Source: Desulfobulbaceae bacterium (lineage in GTDB: Bacteria > Desulfobacterota > Desulfobulbia > Desulfobulbales > Desulfobulbaceae). From it: a stretch of DNA of 60,094 nt. The stretch lies in NCBI GenBank assembly GCA_023544645.1, contig JAMJFO010000017.1, forward strand, positions 1 to 60,094. The letters run 5' to 3'. This document shows positions 45,410-47,581 of the stretch, one piece after another; the first letter of the stretch is position 1, and every line of letters begins with the position of its first letter. The position numbers were made by a program, and so were the translations under genes. The notes under the pieces are model-generated. The model did not search any database, had not been told where the DNA came from, and worked only from the letters and a program-made list of their open reading frames with translations.

Positions 45410-46246
45410 TCAGCCGAAACGCCCGGTAATGTAGTCTTCGGTCAGGGGATGGATGGGATTGGTGAAAACCTGTTTCGTCGGACCGACCTCGATCAGGTCG
45501 CCAAGATGAAAATAGGCCGTGCGCTGTGAAACACGCGATGCCTGCTGCATATTGTGGGTAACGATGACAATGGTGTACTGTTCCTTCAACTCGGTTATCA
45601 ATTCCTCAATGGTTGCCGTTGCAATGGGATCAAGTGCGGAGCAGGGCTCATCCATGAGAATAACCTCGGGACTGACGGCAATGGCCCGGGCTATGCACAA
45701 CCGCTGCTGCTGCCCTCCCGACAGGCCGGTTCCGGGCTGATTCAGCCTGTCCTTGACCTCGTCCCATAATCCGGCTTTTTTCAAAGACGTTTCCACAACC
45801 TCATCCAGTTCATATCGGGAAGAAACCAGGCCATGGATCTTGGGTCCGTAGGCAACATTATCGTATATGGACTTGGGAAAGGGATTGGGCTTCTGAAATA
45901 CCATACCCACCTGGGCCCTAAGCGGAACGACATCAACCTTTCTGCCATAAATATCCACATCGTCCAGTTTTATCTCTCCGGTCACCCGACAATCTTCAAT
46001 GGTATCGTTCATCCTGTTCAGGCACCGAAGAAACGTCGATTTGCCGCAACCGGAAGGCCCTATCATGGCCAGTACCTCATTTACACCAATATCAACGGAC
46101 GTATTTTGGATAGCCTGCTTATCACCATAGTAAACATTGACTTCGCGGCAGGTCATGCGGGGTGAATCAGAAAAAGGGTGGCCGACAGTCTGCCGATCCT
46201 CCCTCGATATCCGTTTTCCCTCTACTTTCGTTTTTTTATCAATCAT
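45410..46246 (-). CDS. pstB: Phosphate ABC transporter ATPase PstB
   Basis: A 278-residue ABC ATPase of the high-affinity phosphate importer. Walker [10 protein letters not shown], the PstB-specific [17 protein letters not shown]-loop [26 protein letters not shown], signature [14 protein letters not shown] and Walker [12 protein letters not shown] are all present. The N-terminal extension of about 28 residues ([19 protein letters not shown]) is longer than usual. It is separated from pstS by 288 bp holding a hairpin and a mobile-element-like insertion, which may uncouple its expression from the rest of the pst genes. Confidence 0.96.
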
Positions 46247-46312
46247 CCAGGCAGCTGAAACAGAAATTTATAAAGAACACTGAGACCATGCCCCAAAGCT
46301 TGGCAACACAGT

Positions 46313-46342
46313 ATGCAGGGGCGTAATCTACCGCCCCTGCAT
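46313..46342. repeat. Perfect 11-bp GC-rich hairpin between pstS and pstB
   Basis: ATGCAGGGGCG (46313-46323) and CGCCCCTGCAT (46332-46342) pair perfectly around an 8-base loop (TAATCTAC). It abuts the element at 46346-46519. No T-run follows on the minus strand. It might stabilise or attenuate the pst transcript. Confidence 0.5.
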
Positions 46343-46345
46343 GAA

Positions 46346-46519
46346 TATACAACATAAGAGTTCAGCAGTACCCCATCTGCACACGCTCAGAACGTGCGGT
46401 ATAGAGGGGCTATAGCCTACCCGTCCTGATCGTGCACATCTGGGGCGCTGTTAAACTCTTACAAGTTTAAGGTAGAGACTACGTTTTGCATCACTGGTGA
46501 ACTGTTACTATACAACATA
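46346..46519. mobile_element. MITE-like insertion inside the pst operon
   Basis: An 11-bp direct repeat TATACAACATA flanks the region (46346-46356 and 46509-46519), as a target duplication would. Just inside are inverted ends AGTTCAGCAGT (46359-46369) and ACTGGTGAACT (46493-46503), 10 of 11 complementary. The interior 46358-46458 is itself a long imperfect palindrome (GAGTT.A.CAG..CCCCA arms). No coding capacity. It lies between pstS and pstB. Confidence 0.55.
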
Positions 46520-46534
46520 TCCTTTACCTGTGCA

Positions 46535-47581
46535 TTACAGAGCAAGAACAGTAAGATTTTTTACGTCAGAGCTGATCTTATTGCGCTCCTCCTCAGGCAT
46601 GGGAATAAGGCCCTTGTCTGAGAGGTAGCCCTCTTCACCCCATGCCTTTTTACTTGTAAATTCGGCAAGATACTCGTTGATTCCCGGAATTGTTCCGACA
46701 TGGGCTTTTTTCACATAAAAATACAATGGACGCGATACCGGATACAGCCCATCGGCAATGGCTTCAAAGGATGGTTCCTGCCCGTCAACCAGTGAGCCCT
46801 GAACCTTGTCACTGTTCTGATCAAGAAAACTGAAACCGAAAATACCCAGGGCATCCGGATTCGCTTCAAGTTTCTGCACGATAAGATTGTCATTCTCCCC
46901 TGCTTCGATATACGCGCCATCCTCACGGACAGTGTGGCAGGTTTGCTTATATTTGTTTTTATCCGAATTTTTCATTGCTTTTAACCACTCAAAATCCTTG
47001 CATCCTCCCTCCATGGCGAGTTCAACAAAGGCATCGCGGGTGCCGGAGGTAGGAGGAGGACCGAGAACCTCTATCCTGATGGCCGGCAGGGAGGGGTTGA
47101 CATCCTTCCAGGTGTTGTAGGGATTGGAAACCAGTTTTTCACCCCCTTTCGGGTCCGGCACATTTTTAGCCATGGCAAGAAAAATATCCTTGCGGGTCAG
47201 CGACATAAGCTCTGCTTTCTTGGCATTGGCAATGACAATTCCGTCATAGCCGATCTTGACCTCGACAACACCCTTTACACCGTTTTCCCGGCACATATCA
47301 AACTCCGACTTCTTGATCCGCCGCGAGGAATTGGCAATATCCGGATGATTGACACCAATGCCGGCGCAGAATAATTTCAACCCGCCGCCGGAACCGGTGG
47401 ATTCAACCTTGGGAGTCTTGAAACGGGTTGTCTTGCCGAACTGTTCAGCCACGGTGGTCGAAAACGGATAAACCGTCGATGAGCCCACTATGGAAATATA
47501 ATCACGGGCCTCAGAGGGGGCGGCCAGCCCCCAGGACAACATGAGCGAAGCCGCAACAACAGGGATTACAGATAATTTCAT
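46535..47581 (-). CDS. pstS: Phosphate ABC transporter substrate-binding protein PstS
   Basis: A 348-residue periplasmic binding protein. Signal peptide MKLSVIPVVAASLMLSWGLAAPSEA. Phosphate-binding loops: IVGSSTVYPFSTTVAEQF, ESTGSGGGLKLFCAGIG with DIANSSRRI, and GPPPTSGTRDAFVE. GGAGGAAAAATC precedes the ATG. It is the third gene in pstC-pstA-pstS-pstB order, with 103 bp upstream that could hold its own promoter. Confidence 0.95.
   Translation of the reverse strand: MKLSVIPVVAASLMLSWGLAAPSEARDYISIVGSSTVYPFSTTVAEQFGKTTRFKTPKVESTGSGGGLKLFCAGIGVNHPDIANSSRRIKKSEFDMCRENGVKGVVEVKIGYDGIVIANAKKAELMSLTRKDIFLAMAKNVPDPKGGEKLVSNPYNTWKDVNPSLPAIRIEVLGPPPTSGTRDAFVELAMEGGCKDFEWLKAMKNSDKNKYKQTCHTVREDGAYIEAGENDNLIVQKLEANPDALGIFGFSFLDQNSDKVQGSLVDGQEPSFEAIADGLYPVSRPLYFYVKKAHVGTIPGINEYLAEFTSKKAWGEEGYLSDKGLIPMPEEERNKISSDVKNLTVLAL

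Follow-up and report, generated by a model that had tools for sequence, protein, structure and literature searches.

Several described systems resemble the element analyzed here. Among MITEs, the Correia and ERIC elements served as our comparison (PMC10969869). Insertion sequences of the IS66 family have ends of 20-30 bp that start with GTAAGCG and carry 8-bp repeats (PMC11946415), and ISDge4, which belongs to the ISBst12 group, has the ends GTGACTACTCAGCA/GTAACTGCTCAGCA and an 8-bp repeat (PMC12898284). Finally, the REPINs of Pseudomonas show compensatory changes across their hairpin, and a folded, excised intermediate has been proposed for them (PMC3116915).

Our window, the whole stretch of 60,094 nucleotides that was analyzed, carries between pstS and pstB a 155-bp, non-coding, MITE-like element on the minus strand (Table 1). 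Our reading, to which we assign a probability of roughly 0.7, is that it is a copy of a non-autonomous MITE family, likely mobilized by an IS66-family transposase, whose hairpin is kept on one strand by selection at the level of the element. Its observed basis consists of the copies, their ends and duplications, the absence of the hairpin from the corresponding gaps of relatives, the covariation and the strand asymmetry.

None of the listed open reading frames of at least 60 aa overlaps the element. The surrounding genes follow the order pstC, pstA, pstS, pstB, all on the minus strand, and PstB, PstA and PstC score above their NCBIfam cut-offs; profile matches thereby confirmed the predicted placement between pstS and pstB. 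The inverted ends and the long palindrome that had been proposed from the sequence are also real. In the minus-strand reading the hairpin (46462-46354) starts with GTAAGAGTTTAACAG and finishes with CTGCTGAACTCTTAT, and its far arm doubles as the second terminal repeat of the element. The family consensus ends in ...TTAC, and the first base of the R repeat of the pst copy deviates from the family G. The family model, a covariance model built from 21 copies with the pst copy among them, gives the hairpin 107 bits on the minus strand and 60.3 on the plus strand. The 11-bp direct repeat of the original prediction stood in part: TATACAACATA is present at 46346-46356 and 46509-46519, but the true duplication is the 8-bp TATACAAC. 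The three further bases, ATA, agree by chance: those on the left belong to the element, whose family consensus here is GTA, and those on the right to the flank.

An Rfam scan of 46000-46900 gave no match for the element up to E 1. An automated repeat listing of the window reported neither repeat, probably because of its 9-base exact seed and 12-base minimum. Between the element and pstB, at 46315-46340, there is also a perfect GC-rich inverted repeat, GCAGGGGCG-N8-CGCCCCTGC, with one match in the window against 0.02 expected.

Table 1 Features of the element and its neighbors in the window (L and R, the two outer ends).
Feature	Position	Strand	Basis
Target-site duplication, copy 1, TATACAAC	46346..46353		8/8 identical to 46509-46516; 8-bp duplications at many other copies
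Target-site duplication, copy 2, TATACAAC	46509..46516		8/8 with copy 1
Mobile element of 155 bp, opening with the short terminal repeat and closing with the hairpin	46354..46508	-	Alignment to the G000:C152 copy (97% over 154 bp) and to relatives
Outer terminal inverted repeat L, GTAACAGTTCACC	46496..46508	-	11/11 fixed positions of GTAANNGTTCACC
L segment, 46 bp (terminal repeat and variable spacer)	46463..46508	-	Distance from L end to hairpin 44-47 bp in 20/20 G038 copies
109-nt hairpin	46354..46462	-	Covariance model R1, 107 bits; covariation
Terminal repeat, inner inverted copy, GTAAGAGTTTAAC, with which the hairpin 5' arm begins	46450..46462	-	Sequence and alignment
Outer terminal inverted repeat R, ATAAGAGTTCAGC, end of the hairpin 3' arm	46354..46366	+	Sequence and alignment
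Subterminal motif CCCCATCT, in the R arm	46371..46378	+	Also at one end in 5/10 IS66 elements with listed ends
pstS, upstream neighbor on the transcript	46535..47581	-	PF12849 above cut-off; NCBIfam TIGR02136 below its cut-off
pstB, downstream neighbor	45410..46246	-	TIGR00972 PstB equivalog, above cut-off

We compared the locus with that of seven relatives, in all of which pstB directly follows pstS, with gaps of 81-251 bp. The gap in the window, cut likewise, measures 291 bp, or about 128 bp after subtraction of the insert and one duplication. The proposal that the insertion had separated pstB from the other transport genes therefore fell, as the relatives keep the same order. According to the original prediction, relatives that carried the sequence at this place would argue for a regulatory structure; the hairpin model found it in 0/7 of these gaps at E<=1. 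Among 12 pstB loci scanned, matches occurred only in the window's own locus and in L187, from genome G038, where the match lies about 1 kb beyond pstB. Rescanning the gaps of L187 and L184 with the filters off gave nothing above 8 bits. At bases 123-139 of the G038 gap we observed GTAAGCGTTTACCAGTG, identical at 17/17 positions to the start of a hairpin arm, while the best of 300 shuffles of the gap reached 13/17. Most simply, this piece would be what is left of a separate insertion, or a short derivative of one, in a genome rich in copies; descent from an old shared insertion, or a recurrent landing place, is possible.

These comparisons bear on whether the hairpin regulates the pst operon as a conserved structure, a reading suggested by its sense-strand position between pstS and pstB, by other hairpin-like stretches noticed by eye downstream of pstS in several relatives and by the 17-bp piece in G038. 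Against it stand the empty gaps of the relatives, the 17 other places of the hairpin in the same genome and the target duplication flanking the element, and we regard it as extremely improbable. Since the hairpin is missing from the relatives' gaps, the pst copy is an insertion, in sense orientation, that is absent as a hairpin from the relatives compared, and not a conserved pst regulator.

The family to which this copy belongs is abundant. At E<=1e-4, the hairpin model matches 171 of the 257 genomes of the order, which we take, from the titles of matching records, to be the Desulfobulbales; these represent 56 of its 69 genera and about two thirds of the sequenced species. A BLAST search of 57 genomes gave matches in 13, namely 12 others and the own genome, where it recovered one further copy at 97%. 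In the own genome, the model finds 18 distinct hairpin places at E<=0.01 (17 besides pst), divided among several sequence subfamilies. A second subfamily there (L104, L105, L106, L108 and L109) has a GCGTACATCGGGTACG loop and L ends such as GTAACTATCCAGC, and a 49-bp mini-hairpin match (L116) is apparently an internally shortened copy. In genome G039, 60 places lie in 800 kb of a 3,097,763-bp contig, which would amount to about 230 genome-wide if they were evenly spread; no clear replication-strand bias was seen in these first 800 kb (33 plus, 26 minus). In G038, 19 of 20 copies are nearly identical, which suggests a recent burst. Placement is intergenic in 81 of the 91 classified places (98 in total, 7 at edges), the 98 being a deduplicated subset of the model hits from which some short, cut or low-scoring hits were omitted.

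The exact pattern CAGATGGGGTGCTGSTGAAC occurs in 60 stretches of a species-genome collection, and their titles name only Desulfobulbus, Desulforhopalus, Desulfobia, Desulfobulbaceae, Deltaproteobacteria or unplaced Pseudomonadota MAGs. In a sample of the phylum, 14 of 395 genomes match the hairpin model at E<=1e-6, four of them outside the order (G324, G431, G577 and G589, two with at least nine matches each); either horizontal spread or an older origin would account for these. The scans scored at most 15 candidates per genome in the order, at most nine in the phylum and at most 150 in another scan, and palindromes match both strands, so their match counts are not copy numbers. Plasmid and phage collections gave no match.

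Throughout the family, the eight bases 3' of the hairpin equal the eight bases before the L end. The hairpin was placed correctly in 25 of 30 loci surveyed (L076, L084, L090, L091 and L097 were misplaced), and the duplication is perfect in 13 of these 25. In G039, it is recognizable at 7-8 of 8 positions in 22 of 59 copies, one of the 60 places being omitted as it is cut at the border of the stretch, against about 0.1% with shuffled partners. In G038, the same holds for 17 of 20 copies, against 2 of 380 swapped pairs. Such recurrence throughout the order, together with the target duplications, makes the element more than a chance arrangement, and the view of it as a MITE-like insertion is borne out by a target duplication and a family dispersed across the genome and the order. 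A 66-bp internally deleted derivative (L026, 1490-1555) has kept both ends and is flanked by a perfect 8-bp duplication, GAAAGGAC, but lacks the hairpin 5' arm; it may have moved without the hairpin. The survey of the 30 loci also sought an autonomous partner carrying the hairpin, and in the 25 correctly placed loci there was no convincing distant L end with a duplication; weak candidates, with two mismatches, lay at 695-1018 bp.

Which transposase could have moved the element? It has the GTAA ends and the 8-bp duplication that form the IS66 signature in the passage cited (PMC11946415). Three IS66-type elements of the order (L035, L043 and L045) have GTAACCGTTCACC ends; the L ends of several family copies show the same 13 bp, and the R end of the L020 copy is GTAACTGTTCAGCA. 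Ten IS66 elements had their ends listed; five of them carry CCCCATCT at one end, and five have perfect 8-bp duplications. We infer from these similarities that the transposase is probably of the IS66 family. L043, L044 and L045 are IS66-type elements of 2.4-2.8 kb with DUF6444+DDE_Tnp_IS66 transposases, preceded in L043 and L044 by a DruA-like gene (PF14236). The ends of L044 are GTAACCGTTCAGC and GTAATCGTTCACC, and no duplication was recognized for any of the three. Against an IS66 transposase, PF03050 was found neither in the own genome nor in the copy-rich genomes G038 and G041. Across 257 genomes, many of them fragmented assemblies, the hairpin is present in 58 of 88 with PF03050 (E<=1e-10) and in 113 of 169 without it (p 0.89), which shows no association between the two.

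In two cases, L035/L042 and L036/L060, a family copy adjoins TnpC sequence. In L035, a copy occupies positions 33-141, where an IS66 transposase gene begins, and its hairpin abuts the TnpC frame, as would be expected if the hairpin were the 5' leader of such a gene and the element a plain deletion derivative of the insertion sequence. This reading is very improbable. L035 also shows a partial L segment beside the hairpin, where the contig starts, and in L092 the identical hairpin is accompanied by a similar L segment and by a perfect duplication; the best reading of L035 is therefore an insertion of the element where tnpC begins, and it was rejected as an autonomous form. Furthermore, L043, a close TnpC relative, has no hairpin before the gene, and the hairpin model found no match in L044, L045 and 27 further IS66 loci. 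An integron attC identity was dropped by eye. No conserved promoter was seen by eye in the L segment, and one promoter-like match, near 46507-46534, does not exceed the chance expectation.

We analyzed the fold of the hairpin on both strands. The minus strand of the 174-base segment has a folding energy of -64.2 kcal/mol (z -4.58, 0/200 shuffles as good) and the plus strand one of -53.2 kcal/mol (z -2.65, 1/200 shuffles as good). When 21 copies are aligned without regard to structure, 96.3% of the cells are paired and 22 of 42 pairs have changed on both sides; the covariation score is 0.411, compared with 0.194 for shuffles (0/500 as high) and 0.042-0.100 for slid structures. Two adjacent wobbles are conserved, UG in 16/21 copies at columns 16/97 and GU in 20/21 at columns 17/96. 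The two closest own-genome copies score 118 vs 64 and 107 vs 60 bits by strand.

The changes that leave the stem imperfectly paired are also asymmetric. At Watson-Crick consensus pairs, G-T exceeds A-C by 53:6 in the 60 G039 copies and by 128:20 in 49 copies from many genomes, aligned with MAFFT without structure; the orientation in both counts was taken from the model. A model-free check, using 28 G039 copies oriented by duplication and L end, gave 23:3, and comparison between 35 nearest-neighbor pairs in G039 gave 37:2. In that genome, a duplication (7-8 of 8) with an L end lies on the expected side of the hairpin in 22 places, on the opposite side in one and on neither in 36. Thus, with G-T wobbles far above A-C, the fold of one strand has been preserved. 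By origin, the G-T:A-C ratio is 39:2 from G-C pairs and 14:4 from A-T pairs; because G-C pairs give the stronger excess, strand-biased C-to-T damage of an exposed strand may contribute to it. The private changes of the young G038 copies (3 G-T, 2 A-C) show no clear excess and are too few to decide, but they would fit a selection that acts on the lineages that multiply and not on every copy once inserted.

Could the arms instead have been kept complementary by template switching inside quasi-palindromes, in an ordinary MITE without selection on the fold? Some observations in G039 would fit such arm-to-arm correction. Double changes private to one copy are seen in the stems there, and intermediate states are few: 20 singleton bases make a Watson-Crick pair with a partner that is itself a singleton, compared with 17 mismatches, 4 G-T and 0 A-C, and pair 5/159 occurs as A-T in 19 copies, G-C in 18, T-A in 17, C-G in three and C-C in one. 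However, the process would treat both strands alike, which the excess of G-T over A-C contradicts, and it would erase conserved wobbles that G039 keeps (TG in 51/60, GT in 55/60). Consequently, we consider this explanation unlikely.

We weighed next a host-useful RNA element, in which the hairpin would act as a terminator or mRNA stabilizer and the copies would be retained by the host. The largely intergenic placement (81/91) agrees with such a role, and some hairpins without a recognizable duplication are still well paired. In contrast, between co-directional genes of G039 the stable strand is sense in 10 cases and antisense in 29 (p 0.003); in other genomes the counts are 23 and 35, and in the young G038 copies 6 and 6. 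Pooled, this gives 39 sense vs 70 antisense (p 0.004, with crude longest-ORF calls and related copies), and since copies share ancestry, the p values given here are indicative only. The stable strand is not favored in sense; a strong mRNA hairpin therefore appears, if anything, to be avoided, which argues against a host mRNA role. The hairpin in the window, moreover, has no T tract after it. Altogether, such a role is quite unlikely. The pst copy itself has the rarer, sense orientation, and for this reason a putative effect on the pst transcript is plausible.

Our preferred reading, a non-autonomous MITE family under element-level selection, leads to the following model. A transposase supplied in trans, most likely of the IS66 family, would recognize the ends GTAANNGTTCACC (L) and GTAANNGTTCANCAGCACCCCATCT (R), and the element would insert with an 8-bp duplication. 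The R end is embedded in a hairpin, usually of 107-110 nt, with R as the 3' arm and its inverted copy as the 5' arm. Selection would then act at the level of the element and on one strand, as lineages that fold as a single strand would keep multiplying. The folded form would be either single-stranded DNA during mobilization, as proposed for REPINs, or an RNA of the element; the two are indistinguishable by fold because the minus strand of the window copy also folds better as DNA (-28.4 vs -20.6 kcal/mol for plus). A more specific version, which we regard as possible but doubtful, is that mobility needs the single-strand folding of the R end, as DNA of one polarity or as RNA, so that a REPIN-like intermediate would be combined with DDE-type insertion.

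The repeat family defined here is abundant in an order of sulfur bacteria; we found no description of it in Rfam or in the titles, abstracts and passages of the literature searched. Its strand-specific fold raises a testable question, namely whether a folded single strand is needed for the movement of an element with DDE-type ends. In addition, the pst copy provides a natural experiment, in which a strong intercistronic hairpin can be related to the PstS:PstB ratio.

Compared with known systems, the pst family is like the Correia and ERIC elements short, non-coding and mostly intergenic, with inverted ends, high copy number and stable folds. It differs from them in its IS66-type ends, its bipartite structure of L segment and hairpin, its covarying fold on one strand and its hosts. 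With the IS66/ISBst12 group it shares ends starting with GTAA, 8-bp duplications and CCCCATCT near one end (in 5/10); unlike these, it has no transposase gene, and its hairpin is absent from the scanned IS66 loci except L035/L042 and L036/L060. The IS66-type elements L043-L045, of which L043 and L044 have a DruA-like gene, share the GTAACCGTTCACC ends (L043 and L045), but they are 2.4-2.8 kb long, carry their own genes and have no hairpin match. REPINs are not known to produce a target-site duplication and are tied to RAYT transposases, whereas the pst family has 8-bp duplications and DDE-type ends; both are interspersed hairpin repeats with compensatory changes. The surprising feature of the family, as our analysis suggests, is the one-strand conservation of a hairpin that holds one of the transposon ends, an arrangement that resembles REPINs in a DDE-type setting.
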